A stretch of DNA of 64,000 nucleotides from Mesorhizobium sp. M1E.F.Ca.ET.045.02.1.1 (lineage in GTDB: Bacteria > Pseudomonadota > Alphaproteobacteria > Rhizobiales > Rhizobiaceae), in contig NZ_CP034447.1 in assembly GCF_003952485.1 (NCBI RefSeq), positions 1,426,001 to 1,490,000 on the forward strand, in the 5' to 3' direction. Shown piece by piece: positions 1,724-45,847 of this stretch. The translations under genes were made by a program, and so were the position numbers. Position 1 is the first letter of the stretch; the number at the start of each line of letters is the position of its first letter. Below the pieces are notes generated by a model. The model was not told the origin of the DNA and made no database searches. It saw nothing but the letters and a program-made list of their open reading frames with translations.

Positions 1724-2758
1724 ATGAGCGATGCACAGACGCAGATCCCCGTAACCGTTCTCACCGGCTATCTCGGCGCGGGCAAGACGACGCTGCTCAA
1801 CCGCATCCTGTCGGAGAACCACGGCAGGCGTTACGCCGTCATCGTCAACGAGTTCGGCGAGATCGGCATCGACAACGACCTGATCGTCGAATCCGACGAG
1901 GAAATCTACGAGATGAACAATGGCTGCGTGTGCTGCACGGTGCGCGGCGACCTGATCCGCGTGGTCGAGGGCCTGATGCGGCGGCCCGGCCGCTTCGATG
2001 CCATCGTCGTCGAGACTACCGGTCTTGCCGACCCGGTGCCGGTGGCACAGACCTTCTTCATGGACGATGACGTGCGCTCGAAGACCAAGCTCGACGCGGT
2101 GGTGGCGCTGGTCGACGCCAAGCACCTGCCGCTGCGGCTGAAGGATTCCAAGGAGGCCGAGGACCAGATCGCCTTTGCCGACGTCGTGGTGCTGAACAAG
2201 ACCGATCTCGTCACCCCGGAAGAGCTCGAAAAGGTCGAAGCGACGATCCGCGCCATCAACCCGGCGGCCAGGATCCATCGCACAGAGCGCGCCGGCGTGG
2301 CGCTTCGCGAGGTGCTCGACCGTGGCGCCTTCGACCTGTCCCGCGCGCTGGAGAACGATCCACATTTCCTCGAGGCGCATGATCATGACCACGACCACGA
2401 CCACCACGATCATGACGGGCATGACCATCATCACCACGACCATGCTTCGGATATCCACGACGTGACGGTGAAGTCGGTGTCGCTGCGCGGCGGCGAGATG
2501 GACCCGAAAAAGTTCTTCCCCTGGATCGAGAAGGTGACCCAGATGGAAGGTCCGAACATTCTGCGGCTGAAGGGCATCATCGCGCTCAAGGGCGACGACG
2601 AGCGCTATGTTCTGCAAGGCGTGCACATGATCCTCGAAGGCGACCATCAGCGCGCCTGGAAGGACGGCGAGAAGCATGAGAGCCGGCTGGTGTTCATCGG
2701 CCGCGACCTCGATGAAGAGCGGCTCCGCAAGAGTTTTGAAGCCTGCCAGGCGGCTTGA
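1724..2758 (+). CDS. CobW/COG0523 metallochaperone-type GTPase
   Basis: 344 residues from the ATG at 1724 ([12 protein letters not shown]); an upstream in-frame start at 1646 adds residues that do not look like the family. P-loop [12 protein letters not shown] at about residue 16, then the COG0523 metal-binding CVCC motif at about 68-71, and the guanine-specificity NKTD motif near 160. Between the GTPase and C-terminal CobW_C domains is a loop of about 22 residues made of His and Asp only, except one Gly (about 220-242), a metal reservoir or sensor. The family inserts or delivers zinc, cobalt or other metals into target proteins. The next gene, WD40-like, follows in the same direction. Which metal is served is unknown; zinc is the most common assignment for His-rich members. 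Confidence 0.92.
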
Positions 2759-2784
2759 TTTTCGGACTTTCAGGCGCTAGCGCT

Positions 2785-2946
2785 GCCCTTCTCTCCTTCT
2801 CCTCTTGCGGGAGAAGGTGGCCGAGCGAAGCTCGGTCGGATGAGGGGTGTTCCAGCTTGGCGATGACGGCGCTCCGTCCAACACCCCTCATCCGTCTTGG
2901 CGCTACGCGCCAATCCACCTTCTCCCACAAGGGGAGAAGGGGGAGC
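2785..2946. repeat. Long intergenic palindrome, 'ggagaaggtgg...gatgaggggtgtt' type
   Basis: Left arm at about 2787-2851 and right arm at about 2879-2946 are imperfect reverse complements, each with its own inner hairpin (cttctcc...ggagaag, and gagcgaagctc on the left or ggcgctacgcgcc on the right). The element sits between cobW and the WD40 gene. It belongs with the other large palindromes in this window, though its arm sequence is a different subtype. Confidence 0.8.
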
Positions 2947-36537: not shown

Positions 36538-38064
36538 TCAGCTGGCTTTTCCCGCCGTGTAGATATCCTTGTACGCCTCGCGCAAAACGTTCTTCTGCAC
36601 CTTGCCCATCGTGTTGCGCGGCAGTTCGTCGACGAAGATCACCTGCTTCGGATGCTTGTACTTTGCCAGCCGTCCGGCGATGGCGTCGGCAATGTCGGCG
36701 GCGCTGATCGCCGATCCCGGCTTGCGCACCACCACCGCCGTGACGCCCTCTCCGAAATCCGGATGAGCGACGCCGATCACGGCGCTTTCGCTGATGCCGG
36801 CAAGCGCGTCGATCTCGCTCTCGATCTCCTTCGGATAGACGTTGTAGCCGCCCGAGATGATCAGGTCCTTGCCGCGGCCGACGATGTGGACATAGCCGTC
36901 GGCGTCGATCAGGCCGAGATCGCCGGTGACGAAGAAACCGTCATCGCGGAACTCGGCCTTGGTCTTCTCCGGCATCCGCCAATAGCCGGCAAACACATTC
37001 GGCCCCTTCACCTCGATCATTCCGATCGCGCCCTGGGTCAGCGGTTCGGCCGTCTCGGGATCGGTGATGCGCAGTGACACGCCGGGCAGCGGAAAGCCGA
37101 CCGTGCCGGCGCGCCGCTCGCCGTCATAAGGGTTGGACGTGTTCATGTTGGTCTCGGTCATGCCGTAGCGTTCGAGGATGGCGTGGCCGGTGCGCTCGCG
37201 CCAGGCATTGTGCGTCTCGGCAAGCAGCGGCGCCGAGCCGGAGATGAACAGCCGCATATGCCTGGCTGCATCTTTTGTGAGCCCATCCTGCTGCAGCAAT
37301 CGCACATAGAAGGTCGGCACGCCCATCAGCGCCGTGGCGCGTGGCATCAGCGACAGGATGCGGGCCGGATCGAACTTCTGCTCAAAGAACATCCTGGCGC
37401 CGGCTATCAGGATGACGTTGGTGGCGACGAACAGGCCGTGCGTATGGAAGATCGGCAGCGCGTGGATCAGCACGTCGTCGGCGCCGAAGCGCCAGTGCCC
37501 CACCAGCACGCGCGCGTTGGAGGCGAGGTTCTCGTGGCTGAGCATGGCGCCCTTGGAGCGGCCGGTCGTGCCTGAGGTGTAGAGGATGGCGGCAAGATCG
37601 TCGGGCCTGCGCGCGGCATCGTCGAAATCCGCCGGCTGCAGCGCCGCGCGATCCGCAAGCGTGCCCCGCCCGTCGGCGCCAAGCGTCAGCGTCGCGGCAT
37701 CCGCCGACGCGGCAAGCGGTTGGATGGTGGACGCCTTTTGCGGATCGCAGACGACCAGCCGCGGTTCCGCGTCACGGAAGAAATAGTCGAGCTCCGGCAG
37801 CGTATAAGCGGTGTTGAGCGGCAGGAAGACGGCGCCGGCGCGCAGACAGGCGAGATAGAGCAGCAAAGCTTCCGGCGTCTTCTCCACCTGCACGGCGACG
37901 CGATCGCCGGGCTGGACGCCCGCCTCGACGAGCGCATGCGCATATTGCCCGGACCGCGCCAGCATCTCGCCATAGGAGATAGAACGCCCGTCGTCCGTCT
38001 CCATCAAAACACGGTCAGGCGCCGGCATGCTGGCGCGAAAGGCGTCGAACAGGTGATTGGTCAT
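36538..38064 (-). CDS. matB: Malonyl-CoA synthetase
   Basis: 508 residues from ATG 38064 with GAGGAAG upstream. ANL-superfamily motifs: ILYTSGTTGRSKGAML (about 160-175), LERYGMTETNMN near 300, TGDLGLIDADGYVHIVGR near 388, KDLIISGGYNVYPKEIE, and LPRNTMGKVQKN with the A10 Lys near 490. The MatB pattern (YGMTETNMN, PRNTMGKVQKN) favours malonate as substrate: it forms malonyl-CoA with ATP. Malonyl-CoA decarboxylase (matA) and a carrier are not in the window. A GntR/FCD regulator lies 244 bp upstream in the same direction. Confidence 0.88.
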   Translation of the reverse strand: MTNHLFDAFRASMPAPDRVLMETDDGRSISYGEMLARSGQYAHALVEAGVQPGDRVAVQVEKTPEALLLYLACLRAGAVFLPLNTAYTLPELDYFFRDAEPRLVVCDPQKASTIQPLAASADAATLTLGADGRGTLADRAALQPADFDDAARRPDDLAAILYTSGTTGRSKGAMLSHENLASNARVLVGHWRFGADDVLIHALPIFHTHGLFVATNVILIAGARMFFEQKFDPARILSLMPRATALMGVPTFYVRLLQQDGLTKDAARHMRLFISGSAPLLAETHNAWRERTGHAILERYGMTETNMNTSNPYDGERRAGTVGFPLPGVSLRITDPETAEPLTQGAIGMIEVKGPNVFAGYWRMPEKTKAEFRDDGFFVTGDLGLIDADGYVHIVGRGKDLIISGGYNVYPKEIESEIDALAGISESAVIGVAHPDFGEGVTAVVVRKPGSAISAADIADAIAGRLAKYKHPKQVIFVDELPRNTMGKVQKNVLREAYKDIYTAGKAS

Positions 38065-38138
38065 CGTCTTCCTCTGGACTTGTGGCTGACGCATTCAATG
38101 CATCGGCCTGGCCAGAGCGATATCAGATTTGCCTGCCA

Positions 38139-38246
38139 GAGCAATTCCAGGAAAGTGCGCAGCGGTTTTCCGTCCGGAATTGCGAAAAATAAGGAGCTAA
38201 GCATGTCTCCCGAAGGTGGGAACCGGTTTCGGGGCAAAGGCATGCG
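38139..38246. repeat. Paired short palindromes, rhizobial intergenic type
   Basis: First half: GCAATTCC (38141-38148) and GGAATTGC (38176-38183) flank the core gaaagtgcgcagcggttttcc. Second half: GCATG (38201) and CATGC (38241) flank cccgaaggtgggaaccggtttcggg. The core recurs at 55.1 and 63.1 kb. The element lies between matB and its upstream GntR gene. Confidence 0.75.
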
Positions 38247-38308
38247 TAAAATCAAAAACCTAAAGCGCACGGAGCGAATCTTAAAGATCGCGACGCGCTT
38301 TAGGGCAG

Positions 38309-39052
38309 CTATTTGCGGGCGCGCGGCGCCTTGCCTGAGCCGGCCCTTGGATCGTAGCCCTGGTTGAAGCGCGCCATGCACATCTCGGCGGTCAGCCGAT
38401 AGTGGCTGAGCAAGGCCTCGACCGCGGCGTCGGCATCGCCATCCAGCGTTCGCTCGGCAATCGTCCGGTGCTCGGCGAGGTCATCGCGTTCGGAGCCTGG
38501 GCCGCGCTGCGAAATCAGCCGGTAGCGGGAGGCCTGGTCGGAAAGCTGGTCGCAAAAACCGATCAGCCAATGCGACCGGCACGCCGAGATCAGCGCGCGA
38601 TGGAAGGCGCGGTGCAGCGTCTCCCATTCCGGATTGTTGGTCGCGGGGTCGTCGGACTGGCGACGCTCGGCGCGCGCCAAGCGGTGCAGGGCGAGCACCA
38701 GCTGTTCTTCCCACTCGGCCGTGCGATGGGCAATGGATTCACGCAAGGCGCGTTCCTCCAGCCAGCAACGCGTTCGGGTCAGCTCTTCGAGCTCCGCCGC
38801 ACTCACCGGCATCAGGAAGAAGCCGCGCTGGTCATGGCGGCCAAGCAGGCCCTCCGCGGCGAGGCGATTGAGCGCCTCACGCACGGGCGAGGCGCCGGCG
38901 CCATAGCGGGAAACGACCCATTCGACGCGCAGCTTGCCCTCGGTTTCCAAAGCTCCACGCAGCAGGTCTTCGCGGAGCTGATGGTAGACCGAGCTGGCAA
39001 GCGTGCTCTTGGCACCCTTGCCTTCGCCCGTATCGGCGTTTCCGTTTGCCAA
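38309..39052 (-). CDS. GntR-family regulator, FCD subfamily
   Basis: 247 residues from TTG 39052, chosen because ACAGGAG sits six bases upstream; ATGs further up (39133, 39121) lack such a site. Helix-turn-helix region: SVYHQLREDLLRGAL, LRVEWVVSRYGAGASPVREALNRLAAEGLL, then the wing HDQRGFFLMPVS. The all-helical FCD domain follows (LEELTRTRCWLEERAL, LHRAFHRALISACRSHWLIGFCDQL) with His/Asp metal ligands. It may control matB downstream, as MatR does in other rhizobia, although there matR is divergent from matABC. The link is inference from position. Confidence 0.85.
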   Translation of the reverse strand: MANGNADTGEGKGAKSTLASSVYHQLREDLLRGALETEGKLRVEWVVSRYGAGASPVREALNRLAAEGLLGRHDQRGFFLMPVSAAELEELTRTRCWLEERALRESIAHRTAEWEEQLVLALHRLARAERRQSDDPATNNPEWETLHRAFHRALISACRSHWLIGFCDQLSDQASRYRLISQRGPGSERDDLAEHRTIAERTLDGDADAAVEALLSHYRLTAEMCMARFNQGYDPRAGSGKAPRARK

Positions 39053-39106
39053 TTTGACTCCTGTTGCTTGCCCCTGTTTTTGCCAGGGTCCCTCGGCAAA
39101 GCAATC

Positions 39107-39123
39107 TCGTACGCGTATCATAC
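39107..39123. promoter_or_regulatory. Possible operator TCGTACGCGTATCATAC upstream of the GntR gene
   Basis: The near-palindrome GTAT-C-ATAC at 39115-39123, with CGTACG next to it, lies about 55 bp before the GntR start in a 237-bp gap otherwise without genes. The nearby GATATAACTTGGTATATTG (about 39216) is another AT-rich candidate. Either could be an autoregulatory or rpe promoter site. Weak evidence. Confidence 0.25.
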
Positions 39124-39289
39124 AGCCAGGCATTGCCGCCTAAAAGCAATAAGGTGACGATATTCGATCGAATAAAGTAAATTCCCTCAGAAAAAGCTGA
39201 TGTTAAAGGGCGACTTGATATAACTTGGTATATTGAACAGCCGTTCGGCCGCGCGGCGACTTTTTGTTAGAAACGAGATGTCTATGTCT

Positions 39290-39967
39290 CTAGTTGGCGG
39301 CCCTGTCGGCTGCTGAGCGGATTGCCTCGATATTGGCCCGATAGGCCTCGACGCTGCCGCCCTTGAAGATGGCCGCGCCCGCCACCAGCACGTCGGCGCC
39401 GGCGGCCGTCACCAACGGCGCTGTTTCCGGCGAGACGCCGCCGTCAATCTCGATACGGATCGGGCGGTTGCCGATAAGCGCCTTCACCCTTCGCACCTTG
39501 TCGACGATTGCCGGGATGAATGCCTGGCCGCCGAAGCCCGGATTGACGGTCATGATCAGGATGAGGTCCAGCCGGTCGAGCACGTATTCGATCGCTGTTT
39601 CCGGCGTCGCCGGGTTGAGTGAGACACCGGCCTTCTTGCCGAGACCTTTGATCGTCTGCAGCGAGCGGTCGAGATGCGGGCCGGCCTCGGCATGGACGGT
39701 CATGCCGTCGCAGCCGGCCTCGGCGAAGGCCGCCAGATAGGGGTCGGCCGGCGCGATCATCAGATGGCAGTCGAAGAAGGCCTTGGTGCGGTTGCGGATC
39801 GCTTTAACCACCGGCGGGCCGAAAGTGATGTTGGGCACGAAATGACCGTCCATCACATCGAGATGGATCCAGTCGGCCCCGGCGGCCGCGACCGCCTCGA
39901 CCTCGTCACCGAGCTTCGAAAAATCCGACGCCAGCACCGACGGCGCGATCAGGGTCTTCTTGCTCAT
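39290..39967 (-). CDS. rpe: Ribulose-phosphate 3-epimerase
   Basis: 225 residues, TIM barrel. N-terminal [14 protein letters not shown], the metal-site block [17 protein letters not shown] (about 35-51), [14 protein letters not shown] near 140 and the catalytic Asp in [12 protein letters not shown] near 175. It interconverts ribulose-5-P and xylulose-5-P in the pentose phosphate pathway, which suits the xylA/xylB genes further right, although it is not linked to them. It stands alone here. Confidence 0.95.
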
Positions 39968-40163: not shown

Positions 40164-43100
40164 TTATTGGAGGTTGTTGGTCGCCGGGTTCCGCTGCAAC
40201 CTTGGTTGGTTCCTTGGCACCAGCTGCTGCAGGATGTTCGGATTGAGCAGCAGGTTCGGATTGATCTCCAGTCCCGGCCGTCTGCGGATCGGGAAGCAAT
40301 CCGGATACCGTCCGGTGGTCCCGACCGGGCAGCGCCGCCTTATGATCGGCTGGCAGATACCGTCGATCATCTGCGAACCCGGGGCGCATTCGGCATCTTC
40401 GAACGTGCCGCATCTGCCTTCTATCACCTCGGTGCCGCGCGGACACACGCACGCGCCGCGCTTGTTGAGGACCTGGCCGCGGATGGAGCAGGTTTGCGGC
40501 TTCTTGATCGGCGCGCAGGCCTTGCCCTTCAGCTCCGTTCCCCTCGGGCAGACGCAATCGCCGTCGGCATTGCGCACCTGGCCGCGGATGCGGCACTGGC
40601 TGGGCGGCTGCTTGTCGGGCACGCAGGCCCTGGCGGCGCGGTCGAGATGCGTGCCGTCAGGGCAGACGCAGCCATTCGCTGTCGGCACCGCGCCGCGGAT
40701 CGTGCATTTCGGCGGTATGACCTGACAGACGCCGTTCACCAGCTCGCCACGCCGGCACACGCAATTGCCGTCCTGGTCGCGGTACTGGCCGGGACGCAAC
40801 GTGCATTGCGGTTCGGGCTGCTCGCCCTGCACGCATTTGCCGTTCTCCAGTTCCGTGCCGCGCGGGCAGACGCAGCGTCCGTCCTCGGTGCGGATCTGAC
40901 CCTTGAGCAGCACGCAGCGCGGCGGCACCGGCAGCGGTTGCAGCTTGCCGCTGCCGGAACTGCACTGGCCATTGCGGAAGGTCGTGCCGTCCGGGCAGGC
41001 GCAGCGGCCGGCCGCGTTCAGCACCATGCCGTTCGAGCACTGGTTCTTCACTTCACGTTTGATGGTGAAGGGATGGCAGGCATAGGCCTTGCCGCGATCG
41101 CCCTGCACATTGGCCGGGACGCGCGACAGCACGTCGCCGCCTTGCACCGGCGTGTTCGGCGACAGCACGCCGACGCAGTTCTGCCCGCTGACCACGCCCT
41201 GCAGGTTGGCGAGCCGGCTATCGTCGGGGAGGATCACCGTGACATGATGCTTGTGGCTCTCGCCGGCGCCCAGAGTCAGGTTGGCGATGCAGGACGCCGG
41301 CAGCGTCGCCGGCTCCGGCGAACAGCCGAAGGGCGGGTCGATCGACGTGATCTGAACGCCTTCCAGGCGGCCCAGACCATCGATGCCAATCGCATCGCCG
41401 ATGCGGACCGGGCCGGAGAAGGCGCTCGGCCCATCGTTCGTGATGCTGACGTCGAAGGAGCAGGGTTGGCCCGGCTGGCACTCGGCATCGCCGGTCTTCT
41501 CGACACGGATGGTCGAGGCGCCGCCGCCTTTCGCGCAGGCCTGGCCGATCGGGTAGACGATGTCGTCTCCCGGCGCCGGCCCGTAGGAGCCGCGCGCGCA
41601 GTTCTCGAACGCGCCATTGGCGCTCACCGTCACGTCGAAGTGCCGGCTCTCTCCGGGCGTCATCACGGCGCCGGGAATCTGGCACGACAGCGTGTTGGCA
41701 GGCACCGGCCCGCAGCTCCAATCCGCGCCGTCAGGCGTCACGGTCTGGATGGCAACCGGCGCACCGCCCGATATAAGCGTGGCGGCATCGCTGACCCGCA
41801 CCGGACCGGTGGGAGCAGCCGCGCCGGCGTTGCTGACGGTGATGCGGCAGGAAACCACCGCGGCCCCGGCGAGCGAACCATCGCACACCTTGGTGATGCG
41901 CAAGCCGGGCTGGCCGCCATTCGGATGGCGGATGCGTTCGGTCGCGCAGGCCTTGTTGTTGGCAAGCTCGACCTCGCCGGAAATGGCCTTCACCTCGGCG
42001 CAGTTCTCCACCCTGTCCGGCCGGTAGTTTGCCGGCATGACAGCCTTGACGACGATCGGCGTCGATGCGCCCGGAGGCAGCGAGATGCCGGCATTGTCGC
42101 AGCGGAATTGGCCGGGGCCGTTCGGGCCGCAGGTCCAGGGCGGGCTCGGCCCGAAGGTCGAGGAGGTCGGCGCGCCGCCAGGATAGGTATCGACCACCGT
42201 CAGCGGCCCGTTATAGGTGCTGGTGCCGTTGTTGATGATGTCGATCACGAAGGTGCAGATGCCGTCCGGCGTGCAGACCGGGATGCGGGCGCGCTTCTTC
42301 AGGATCAGGTCGACCTTCTTCTCGACCGGAGGCTGGCACCGCGGGTCGCGATCGCCACGGCGGCAGATCGGGATCGAGGCGCAGGCGCGGTCGTTCTGCT
42401 GGCTACCGAACAGCGGCTTGCCGCTGGCGTGGTAGTCATAGGCGGCGCAGTTGCGCAGCACGCTGCCCTGCCAGCCTGCGGCCGGCTTGAAGCCGAGCTT
42501 GAGGTTGACGGAGGCGCCGGGGTTGAGCGTCGTCACCGGGTGGGTGCAGGTCATCGGCGCCGCTCCGGGCACGCAGATCCAGGGCGGGTTCGGTCCTGAG
42601 GAAAGAACCGAGCCGGCAGGCAGCGTTACTTCATCGAGGACGATCGTGCCGTTGTAGGGCGCGTCGCCGACATTGGTGACGGTGATGGTGAAGTCGCAGC
42701 CGCCTGCCATCGTGCAACGCGGCACCTCGGCCCACTTCTCGACCTTGAGGTCGGGCTGCTCGGGCGGGCACCTGATGTCACGCGGAATGACGATGTCGAT
42801 CGTCTGCGTGCAGCAAAGTCCCCAGCCTTCCTTCGGCCCGGCATAGGTGTCGATGCCGGTGACGACGAGATGGATGGCCTCGCCGGGCGAGGCGCCGATG
42901 ATTTTCCAGTCCAGCACGCCGCCGCCGGCAGGCACCTGCTGGATATCGGGAACGATGGTAATGCCGGGCGTCGTCGTCGACACCTGCACCCACTTGCCGC
43001 CCATCTCCGGGCCGACCGGCATGTGGTAGATGAAGGCGCCGCCGCCAGGCACGCAGTCGACCGTGCCGCGTTCGACCTTGAAGCACTCCTTGGTGGGAGG

Positions 43101-43865
43101 CGGAGGCGGCGGGTTGCATTTGGTCAGGTCGATCTTGATCGAGGTCTTGACGCCGGTGAGGAAATCGCCGTCCTCGGGTTTATCCGGATCCTGCGAGGGA
43201 ATGGTCGTTGCCGGCCCGCCTCGCAGCGAGACCTTGATCTCTCCCTGGTTGTCGACCGTCGCCGGCACGGGAAATGTCGCATGGTCTATCTTGGCCGTGA
43301 TCCGGAAGGTGATGACGCGCTCGTTCGCGGCACCCTCGCCATCGACGTTGGCAGCGCTGATCCGGAAATTGGAAACGCTGGCCGTATCGTTCGGACCGGC
43401 CGATGAGCTGATCGCGCCAGCGGGCAGCGGTCCGCCGGAGGCGCTGGTGCCGTCGCCGGCGACATCCACGCCGACGATCTGCAAGCCGTGCGGAAGCTGG
43501 TCCTTGAAGTCGAGCCTCGTCGCTTTCAGCAGGGCCGCCACGCTTGGCCGGTCGAAGTCCTGCGGGTCGCCGTGGATGCCAAAGCTCAGAACATATTCGA
43601 CGGTATCGCAGCTTCGCTGACCGCCCTTCTTGGTGAAGAAGGGTATGATCCGGCCGAGTTCGGAATTGATGCCGCGCGGTTGATTGGCGGCCTGACTGGA
43701 CGGTGCGGTATTCTGGGCGAGCGCCAGCGATGCCGGCATCATGGCGACCGCGATACCGGCCGCCATCAGCCAGCGCGCGCCGCGCCTGGCGTATGACAGG
43801 GGTTTCATGATCGTCTCCATGATGGTTTTACGCGAGGCGAAGCGGGAAAGGGCGAGATCGCTCAT
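40164..43865 (-). CDS. Large exported protein: Cys-Cys module, DUF11-like domains, EGF-like cysteine repeats
   Basis: 1233 residues from ATG 43865, which overlaps the upstream stop and has GAGGAGGG before it; ATG 43808 is an alternative. A signal peptide (ARRGARWLMAAGIAVAMMPAS...ALAQ) ends near residue 51. Residues about 60-265 are an unassigned beta-rich region; about 270-375 is a module with a CC pair (GWGLCCTQT) shared with the upstream protein. Four DUF11-like domains follow (starts near DLKVEKW, DLILKKR, GLRITKV, IRVEKTG), typical of surface proteins. Residues about 960-1170 hold six tandem repeats of the form C-x(4-5)-G-x(5)-G-x-C-x-C-P-x-G-T-x-L-x(2)-G-x-C and a partial seventh. The end is an Asn/Pro/Arg-rich tail without a membrane anchor. 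Function unknown; probably extracellular or envelope, disulfide-rich. Confidence 0.85.
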   Translation of the reverse strand: MSDLALSRFASRKTIMETIMKPLSYARRGARWLMAAGIAVAMMPASLALAQNTAPSSQAANQPRGINSELGRIIPFFTKKGGQRSCDTVEYVLSFGIHGDPQDFDRPSVAALLKATRLDFKDQLPHGLQIVGVDVAGDGTSASGGPLPAGAISSSAGPNDTASVSNFRISAANVDGEGAANERVITFRITAKIDHATFPVPATVDNQGEIKVSLRGGPATTIPSQDPDKPEDGDFLTGVKTSIKIDLTKCNPPPPPPTKECFKVERGTVDCVPGGGAFIYHMPVGPEMGGKWVQVSTTTPGITIVPDIQQVPAGGGVLDWKIIGASPGEAIHLVVTGIDTYAGPKEGWGLCCTQTIDIVIPRDIRCPPEQPDLKVEKWAEVPRCTMAGGCDFTITVTNVGDAPYNGTIVLDEVTLPAGSVLSSGPNPPWICVPGAAPMTCTHPVTTLNPGASVNLKLGFKPAAGWQGSVLRNCAAYDYHASGKPLFGSQQNDRACASIPICRRGDRDPRCQPPVEKKVDLILKKRARIPVCTPDGICTFVIDIINNGTSTYNGPLTVVDTYPGGAPTSSTFGPSPPWTCGPNGPGQFRCDNAGISLPPGASTPIVVKAVMPANYRPDRVENCAEVKAISGEVELANNKACATERIRHPNGGQPGLRITKVCDGSLAGAAVVSCRITVSNAGAAAPTGPVRVSDAATLISGGAPVAIQTVTPDGADWSCGPVPANTLSCQIPGAVMTPGESRHFDVTVSANGAFENCARGSYGPAPGDDIVYPIGQACAKGGGASTIRVEKTGDAECQPGQPCSFDVSITNDGPSAFSGPVRIGDAIGIDGLGRLEGVQITSIDPPFGCSPEPATLPASCIANLTLGAGESHKHHVTVILPDDSRLANLQGVVSGQNCVGVLSPNTPVQGGDVLSRVPANVQGDRGKAYACHPFTIKREVKNQCSNGMVLNAAGRCACPDGTTFRNGQCSSGSGKLQPLPVPPRCVLLKGQIRTEDGRCVCPRGTELENGKCVQGEQPEPQCTLRPGQYRDQDGNCVCRRGELVNGVCQVIPPKCTIRGAVPTANGCVCPDGTHLDRAARACVPDKQPPSQCRIRGQVRNADGDCVCPRGTELKGKACAPIKKPQTCSIRGQVLNKRGACVCPRGTEVIEGRCGTFEDAECAPGSQMIDGICQPIIRRRCPVGTTGRYPDCFPIRRRPGLEINPNLLLNPNILQQLVPRNQPRLQRNPATNNLQ

Positions 43866-45847
43866 CTGTCCCTCCTCGGCGCTTCGCAGTCGACGGCCGG
43901 CGTCCTGAGCGGCAGCGTCATCTTGCAGCAAGGGTAGTAGCCACCCTTGTCCCGGTCGGACTTGCGGTAGAAGCAGAGACCGACATTGACGGTGTCGCCC
44001 GGATTATGGCCGGTGATGTCGATCGTGTAAGGCTTGCCCGGCGCGTGCGACATGGGTGAGGTCACCCCGACGCCGGGCGTCTTGGACAGAGCCTTGATCG
44101 AATCGCCGCCTAAGCCGGCGTGGTCATGGAGATAGAGGTCCGCCTGGAGGCCACGGGGCGTGCAGAAATACTGCACGTCCTCGACATCGAGGCAGGGAGG
44201 CAAATTGCCGGGCGGTGGGAAGTCCGGCGGATAGAAGGGAGGCAGGAAGCCGCCGGGGATTTCCTCATAATAGCCGGCGCGGCCTTCGCACGGACGCCAG
44301 ACCCTGACGTCGCCGACATGGCCTTGGACGTCCGGGTCTTCGAAATAGCCGTCGAAGTCGACGAACCATGAGCCGAAGGGCGGCACATTAGCCGGCTTGA
44401 CCAGCGCGCTCGGAGTGAGCTGCACGCCATGCACGGCGAGCGGCCCACCGGCGGCAAGCCGCTCGGCAAGCTCCGGATTGTCGCGCAACTTGTCGCCGGT
44501 GTTGACGACCGTGTCGGTGCAAACGGTGGTGTCCAGATTGCCTTCGGCATCGTAGCGGTATTGCAGGTCGACGCCGCCGGCCGACTGGCGATTGTCTTGC
44601 GGGAAGCCGATCGCATATTCCTGCGGCGCCTCGACCCAGACCGATTCCGTCGCCGGATCGTCCGGATCCTCGCGCCAGTAGCGGACGACCTCGCCTTTGC
44701 CGGAATCGGCGAAGCGGCTGTAGTCGTAGCGGTTCTCGACCGGGCCGCGCTGGGCTAGATACATGAAGCCCTCGTTGTCGAAGGCGATGTCGGTGACGGC
44801 ATGGTCCTGGTCGGCCTTGACCGTCAGCTCCCAGCGCGGATCGCCGGCGAAGCCTCCGTCGCTCGCAATGCCGACCGACCAGATTTCGGCTTTCTCGCCG
44901 ACGGAATAGTAGAGCCGGCCGCCATGATAGGCGACCGCCCAGACGCGGCGCTCGTCCTGCGTATAACCCCAGGTTCCAGGGTCTTCGCTGTCGAAGGCCG
45001 CGGCCTGGATGTCCATCACGGCGCCGTCGTCGGCGACGGGGGCCAGCCCATGCGCCGGACGCCCGGCAACGCCATGATCGAAGCTGTCGATCAGATTGCC
45101 GTCGGGGTCTATGCGGTGGATCACGCCGTTATCGAGATCGGAGGCAAAGAACTGGCGGTGGGTGGGATCGAAGGCGAGGTTGCCGATGCCGGGCCCGCTG
45201 TTGGTGTCGATGTCGGCGAATTTCGATACGGCTCCGGTGATGCCGTCGATCTTCCAGATCGTGCCCGGTCCGCCGCCGTTTTCGGTGCCGAACTGGCCAT
45301 CCATGAAGGTCGCGCCCGCGGTGCCGCGGCGCTGCCGCTCGGGGCGGCCGTCATCGTCGGCGTCCGGCGTGACGATCTCGATGCCGTGCAGCGAGGTCGC
45401 CGCCGCATAGAGGTTGGGGATGCCCGACGGCACGCCGTCGCGCATGCCGTCATCATAAGTGAGGCCGAACACCTCGCCGATCTGACCCGCCGTCACCTCG
45501 AAGGGCGGCGGCGTGTAGACGAGTTGGCCGGAGGCCGGGCCGCCGAGGCGCGAAACGTCGAAAATGCGCAACGAGGCCTGCGATGTGTCGATGAACGTTT
45601 CGTCGACCGGGTCGACGCCAGGCGGCAAGCCCCCCTCGGGAGAGTCGAAATCGGGAATGACGGTGCCGGGAAAGCCGGTCACCGCCATCGAGCCCGGATA
45701 GATGATTTGTGTTTCCTGGGCCTTTGCCGCGCCGCCGAGCCAAAGGCCGGCGGACAGCGCCAGGGCAAGAACTCCGCCGGTTGTCGTTATCGCGCGGCGC
45801 AGACCGCCGGCGCGAGAAGCCACGAACGAGCCGCGGTCGCAAAACAT
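43862..45847 (-). CDS. Exported beta-propeller-like protein with C-terminal Cys-Cys module
   Basis: 661 residues from ATG 45847, preceded by GGGGGGAG. Signal peptide: RAITTTGGVLALALSAGLWLG...AKAQE. Residues about 70-430 have NHL/propeller character: WKIDGITGAVSKFADI, IGNLAFDPTHRQFFASDL, IHRIDPDGNLIDSF, VWAVAYHGGRLYYSV, VTDIAFDNEGFMYLAQ. A Pro-rich linker (FPPPGNLPPC) leads to a C-terminal module at about 545-655 with CC (YYPCCKMTLP) and flanking single Cys, similar to a module in the downstream protein. The stop overlaps the next start (ATGA), so both are made together. No enzymatic motif was seen. Function unknown. Confidence 0.83.
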   Translation of the reverse strand: MFCDRGSFVASRAGGLRRAITTTGGVLALALSAGLWLGGAAKAQETQIIYPGSMAVTGFPGTVIPDFDSPEGGLPPGVDPVDETFIDTSQASLRIFDVSRLGGPASGQLVYTPPPFEVTAGQIGEVFGLTYDDGMRDGVPSGIPNLYAAATSLHGIEIVTPDADDDGRPERQRRGTAGATFMDGQFGTENGGGPGTIWKIDGITGAVSKFADIDTNSGPGIGNLAFDPTHRQFFASDLDNGVIHRIDPDGNLIDSFDHGVAGRPAHGLAPVADDGAVMDIQAAAFDSEDPGTWGYTQDERRVWAVAYHGGRLYYSVGEKAEIWSVGIASDGGFAGDPRWELTVKADQDHAVTDIAFDNEGFMYLAQRGPVENRYDYSRFADSGKGEVVRYWREDPDDPATESVWVEAPQEYAIGFPQDNRQSAGGVDLQYRYDAEGNLDTTVCTDTVVNTGDKLRDNPELAERLAAGGPLAVHGVQLTPSALVKPANVPPFGSWFVDFDGYFEDPDVQGHVGDVRVWRPCEGRAGYYEEIPGGFLPPFYPPDFPPPGNLPPCLDVEDVQYFCTPRGLQADLYLHDHAGLGGDSIKALSKTPGVGVTSPMSHAPGKPYTIDITGHNPGDTVNVGLCFYRKSDRDKGGYYPCCKMTLPLRTPAVDCEAPRRDR

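Follow-up and report, generated by a model that had tools for sequence, protein, structure and literature searches.

Why should two putatively exported proteins, encoded by overlapping genes, carry the same cysteine-rich module, one at its very end and the other near its start? The question is raised by a gene pair, here called A and B, of Mesorhizobium sp. M1E.F.Ca.ET.045.02.1.1. The pair lies in a stretch of 64,000 nucleotides (contig NZ_CP034447.1, positions 1,426,001 to 1,490,000 of the forward strand), which we refer to as the window and whose numbering is used throughout; all features of the pair described below are on its minus strand. The genome comprises 7.35 Mb in one contig, and the close homologues of the pair that bear names are from Mesorhizobium. 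Both open reading frames (ORFs) were found where the original prediction, made from the DNA letters, had placed them. Gene A (43862..45847, 661 amino acids) encodes a putatively exported protein with a predicted six-bladed propeller and with the module as its last domain, while gene B (40164..43865, 1233 amino acids) encodes a putatively exported stalk protein with Pfam DUF7929 and DUF11 domains. Both N-termini are hydrophobic with Ala-x-Ala-like ends and resemble signal peptides, as judged by eye. We propose, with a probability of roughly 0.7, that A and B form a two-chain, adhesin-like protein whose head would be plugged onto its stalk by a heterodimer of the two modules.

The likeness between the modules, previously seen by eye, is statistically real. 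BLASTP of A against B gave a single significant alignment, in which A 544-650 pairs with B 253-361 at E 2e-7, and a search of the genome with A returned the module of B as its only second match (E 0.007). Comparison of module profiles with hhalign was significant both for two close-family profiles (E 1.5e-10) and, at E 2e-25, for 39 A-type modules against a B-type set of 40 (which includes one true A-type copy, that of locus L086). BLASTP and profile alignment place the A-type module at residues 548-655 (43883..44206), where it contains six cysteines and ends the protein, and the B-type module at residues 257-368 (42762..43097), directly before the first DUF11 domain, which corrects an earlier placement at residues 270-375. 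In control comparisons the module profile scored E 0.045-0.5, with a probability of at most 1.2%, against profiles of the four DUF11 domains of B, of DUF7929 and of the cysteine repeats, and hhalign thus detected no relationship of the module to any of these. No Pfam or NCBIfam family matched over the module, and a sequence search of the PDB with it found no significant match (best E 0.051).

The evidence that carries our proposal is the distribution of the module over alternative gene organisations. Searches of the family and the order yielded 107 propeller loci, including seven short ones, and a further 54 complete the listed propeller places, as far as visible, apart from L166. Loci were classed by where the ORF ends, without using the module, a two-gene locus being one in which the ORF stops at most 160 residues after the propeller; the profile used to detect modules had been iterated on the matches it found. 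The 161 loci divided into 40 two-gene, 118 one-gene and three undecided loci. The module follows the propeller in all 40 two-gene loci, in 39 of them within the same ORF, and in every one the propeller match extends to position 450 or beyond in a profile of 493 positions. The downstream gene carries the module in 39 of the 40, the contig of L045 ending first; the B gene therefore adjoins A wherever the contig allows it to be seen, and the co-occurrence of the homologues on which the original prediction depended was found. None of the 118 one-gene loci has the module (0/67 among the first 107 loci, 0/51 among the further 54). DUF11 follows the propeller in 61 of the 67 one-gene ORFs of the first set.

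Apart from its 51 one-gene loci, the further set contained L231, left undecided because its contig ends 132 residues after the propeller, and two truncated propellers without module, L206 and L222. These two and one piece of L205 are short module-less ORFs whose propeller matches end at positions 258, 344 and 89 of 493, respectively, and they were counted as fragments. L166, the other propeller copy of genome G309, also has no module and was kept outside the 161. In L086 (G256:C106) an in-frame stop separates the propeller from the A-type module, and a downstream B gene with its module is present. Among the database matches listed, the module was found in 119 of 120 homologues of A, being absent from one fused protein (P0120), and in 120 of 120 homologues of B.

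The module is thus strictly associated with the split form, and is shared by two adjacent genes that pair exclusively. Docking-domain and cohesin-dockerin pairs are small paired domains that hold separately encoded chains together, and the module likewise is present only where the chain is split. It differs from such pairs in that the partners are homologous to each other, were found only in adjacent genes and are missing from fused chains.

How might these observations be explained? In many relatives head and rod lie in one polypeptide, the propeller running into DUF11. By the Rosetta-stone argument, one-chain homologues imply that separate halves belong together, and since such homologues exist A and B would together make up one exported, adhesin-like protein. 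The head would be formed by A, and B would be a rod composed of DUF7929, a run of immunoglobulin-like (Ig-like) DUF11/CLIPPER domains and a Cys-rich tail. Here the chain appears to be split at the propeller/DUF11 joint, each cut end bearing one homologous, presumably disulfide-rich beta module, and after export the A-type and B-type modules would bind as a pseudo-symmetric heterodimer, rejoining head and rod. We infer the docking, and the stoichiometry that goes with it, from the comparative evidence.

The cysteines offer a possible further element of such a joint. An alignment of 26 divergent modules has five invariant cysteines (two of them adjacent), one glycine and one proline; when six outlying copies were added, two cysteines and the proline were still invariant and the other three cysteines were kept in at least 90%, the first cysteine of the adjacent pair being lost in the B-type copy of L165. 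Counted on module slices that include a few flanking residues, A-type modules have six cysteines in 43 of 44 cases and seven in one, and B-type modules have five in 32 of 42, six in seven, four in two and three in one. The mostly five cysteines of the B-type modules, set beside six in the A-type, are suggestive of a possible interchain disulfide. Joining by an intermolecular isopeptide bond of the SpyCatcher kind was also considered and is not favoured, because no lysine or asparagine is invariant among the 26 modules, as judged by eye.

The original prediction had left two possibilities side by side, a binding pair or a common partner. In 199 genomes of the family, A matches were found in 26 and B matches in 25. 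A scan of 397 genomes of the order with the module profile alone found it in 29, each with two copies in adjacent genes, and not in the other 368; a propeller match was found in 114 of the 397. Among 385 genomes sampled from the class, the window's own and three others showed the module, the latter as two pairs and one locus cut by a contig end, and in a phylum sample of 398 genomes, in which genomes outside the class are thinly represented, the eight matches fell into seven genomes of the genus and one of the family, with two copies each. In the order, class and phylum scans only G720 showed a lone module, and its contig ends there. L167 and L169 encode the same A protein, which means that G807 and G720 do not count as independent; L167 and L168, which came from the module search, do not enter the association counts. 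In a tree of the modules, built from few columns and with several long branches, the A-type and B-type copies form the two sides of one branch (support 97 in the Shimodaira-Hasegawa-like approximate likelihood ratio test, SH-aLRT). Because this one supported branch parts them, one duplication would have preceded all sampled pairs, and the two types appear to go back to a single old event.

These data bear on the idea that both modules bind a common third partner, such as a cell-envelope component, a secretion factor or a ligand. Two homologous domains could well share a partner, both chains look exported, and the PG_binding_1 domain in some B-type and one-gene relatives makes envelope partners plausible. 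However, the one-chain forms should still need such a partner and yet none of the 118 has either module; in the scans the module came singly only in G720, at a contig end; and the two types have stayed distinct since their duplication. A common outside partner would not explain one-chain forms without both copies, and we regard this alternative as unlikely. A binding pair, with modules in both chains when they are split and in neither when they are fused, is the favoured half of the original prediction.

Could the association simply have been inherited, the module-bearing two-gene form having arisen once and the module having no role in joining? Such a history would fit the single duplication behind the two module types, as well as a tree of propellers in which 39 of 46 two-gene rows fall into one large group. 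In that tree, however, gene organisation needs seven changes, of which supported branches force at least six, and the module changes with each. The 103 concordant rows, scored for organisation apart from the module, comprised 44 two-gene rows with the module and 59 one-gene rows without it. Six rows were scored by hand (the window, P0063, P0099, P0108, P0120 and L086), and of these modules were confirmed in P0063, P0099 and P0108 and their absence in P0120. Module presence follows organisation in six of six independent pairs (sign test, p 0.031). Moreover, two fused proteins, P0120 and L033, fall among the two-gene forms and have neither module, although the branch of L033 is long and its fork open, and P0120 is represented by a single record. 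Inheritance without function is on these grounds more doubtful still than a common partner. A reading in which the modules bind each other accords with a further result: distances among A-type and among B-type modules correlate beyond what the propeller accounts for (partial r 0.32, Mantel p 0.0005, 38 loci).

Where propeller and stalk share one gene, the first detected DUF11 starts no more than 30 residues from the propeller in 34 of 61 cases. In two-gene forms the A ORF ends 0-21 residues past the module (39 loci), and the first DUF11 of B usually lies at most 11 residues after the module, with exceptions at 37-656 residues and one in which it was not found. Judged from these positions, the module occupies both putative cut ends of the same joint. 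In the fused protein P0120 (1152 amino acids), a single ENA record placed among same-genus rows, A gives way to B at about residue 525 of A and residue 496 of B, and the protein lacks both modules, DUF7929 and the first DUF11. Ahead of the B module, DUF7929 is present in 34 of 39 proteins, and the other five have other or diverged sequence not recognisable as DUF7929. A folding or capping domain that guards a cut chain end, with A and B forming no stable complex, would suit a module that ends A and in B usually sits right before the first DUF11, but it is the least probable of the three alternatives, since in 34 of 39 B proteins DUF7929 precedes the module, which therefore caps no free end there, and neither the extra co-divergence of the two modules nor a stand-alone module protein would be expected.

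That stand-alone protein is encoded at L165 (G309:C531), where the A-type ORF (2401-2862, minus strand) specifies 153 amino acids comprising a signal-like N-terminus and the module only. It was the only one found among 1046 scored database candidates of about 60-190 amino acids, with a 32-module alignment as query. Adjacent to it is a B-type gene that combines the module with DUF11, PG_binding_1 and Cys repeats, and the A-type member of this pair has no propeller. Other loci vary on the B side: L139 has about 95 residues, including a signal-like N-terminus, ahead of the B module, and in L167 (G807) and L168 (G818), from other orders, B has about 700 residues before it. The B protein of L167 shows a VWA_2-like match below cut-off, and its A protein has an N-terminus that resembles a membrane anchor by eye. 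With somewhat less confidence than we place in the two-chain structure itself, we view the module as a new and portable extracellular plug. Its two disulfide-rich domains, homologous yet lastingly distinct, would always come as neighbours and would rejoin the head and stalk of a fibrillar adhesin that are encoded by separate genes. Alphaproteobacteria would repeatedly switch between one and two chains and gain or lose both plugs together, and the plug would also work with other N-terminal domains and, at one locus, with a paired gene that has no propeller.

Several points weigh against a two-chain adhesin joined by its modules. By four profiles, 24 of the 118 one-gene ORFs have no DUF11, four of which touch a contig end (L100, L211, L215 and L191), and the 40 two-gene loci include many that are closely related. 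The tree of 105 propellers comes from a quick search with SH-aLRT support only, and the six independent pairs drawn from it reach no further than p 0.031. Modules that make no contact can also co-diverge, under a shared constraint. In the scans no more than 11 candidates per genome were scored for the module and three to six for the propeller, which leaves room for further copies. Regarding location, no outer-membrane export route or surface anchor was recognised in B by Pfam, NCBIfam or inspection of the sequence, and the peptidoglycan-binding domain of some relatives also fits a periplasmic location. Finally, the likeness of the propeller fold to receptors of the YWTD class shows no ligand.

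Structural comparison provides a picture of the two halves. The propeller head of A (residues 49-525, the span of the fold matches to the predicted model; 44273..45703) has the six-bladed fold of YWTD propellers such as those of nidogen, LRP and the LDL receptor, from which it differs in sharing 12% identity and in lacking, by eye, the YWTD repeat motif of LDLR class B. The resemblance may reflect convergence or deep homology, and A may be a head with ligand-binding potential. Gene A has no Pfam or NCBIfam match, and a PDB sequence search with its propeller gave no match below E 0.019.

The stalk is better characterised. DUF7929 (residues 75-248; 43122..43643; Pfam E 1.2e-80) is a predicted isopeptide domain in which Lys79, Asp122 and Asn206 are invariant across 24 aligned sequences (columns K28, D71 and N155 of the mature protein). 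Their spacing, 43 and 127, equals that of Lys86/Asp129/Asn213 listed for a DUF7929 homologue in Table 1 of PMC12617251, and it is through this spacing that the triad was assigned; the accessible text of that paper describes both DUF7929 and DUF11 as isopeptide-type domains. B thus belongs to DUF7929 (PF25551) by Pfam match and by its triad, with the isopeptide bond predicted, and the same text mentions neither a partner gene nor the module for this family. There follow four tandem Ig-like DUF11/CLIPPER-type stalk domains (residues about 370-935; 41061..42758), a division of our own where Pfam gives two stretches. They match Pfam DUF11 above cut-off (E 1.2e-17) and an NCBIfam DUF11-type repeat, and their predicted model is nearest to the CLIPPER structure 9ifr, with pilin folds also matched. 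Cys-rich repeats (residues about 940-1195; 40281..41048) and a C-terminal tail with no recognised anchor (40167..40280) complete the protein. Some B homologues have a precomputed Pfam EB match (PF01683), its position not being shown. Pfam PG_binding_1 lies inside one-gene or B-type relatives at L103, L139 and L165, hinting at peptidoglycan attachment.

With tandem DUF11 and DUF7929 domains above Pfam cut-offs and with folds like 9ifr and pilins, the pair resembles the fibrillar adhesins with CLIPPER stalks described in the accessible text of PMC12617251, in being apparently exported and in having a putative head region, a tandem DUF11 Ig-like stalk and isopeptide-type domains. Whereas those are described there as surface-anchored monomeric proteins, head and stalk are here two genes, putatively joined by the modules, and no anchor was recognised. 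The original statement that no named system has this layout therefore stands for the pair, and does not stand for the main parts of B, which are the known DUF7929 and DUF11. No description of the module pair was found in the literature searched, where subscription papers were mostly outside reach.

At the window itself, the start of B overlaps the stop of A as ATGA (43862..43865), with the Shine-Dalgarno-like sequence GAGGAGGGA upstream. The exact overlap is not general: of 41 relatives in which B can be read, 33 have their candidate B ATG 9-12 nucleotides past the A stop. Here the Shine-Dalgarno-like stretch preceding the ATG of B reads gaggagggacag. Three neighbouring genes (36538-39967), which we take to be matB-like, GntR-like and rpe-like, accompany the pair in all six same-genus loci compared. 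At 18 loci outside the genus, some of them short, these genes were not seen next to it, indicating that the pair is not bound to this neighbourhood. Within the genus, at least two genomes (G441 and G458) gave neither a propeller nor a module match, compared with seven that gave both, and the pair is therefore not universal in the genus.

Looking forward, if the modules bind each other they would constitute a new orthogonal extracellular heterodimer tag. If our proposal is true, these loci form a natural and repeatedly replayed test of what a cut protein chain needs, and the pairing would explain the two-chain build of a Gram-negative fibrillar adhesin. For Mesorhizobium and its relatives, it provides a hypothesis for the function of two conserved, nameless exported proteins, which may act together as the head and stalk of one surface-displayed adhesin.

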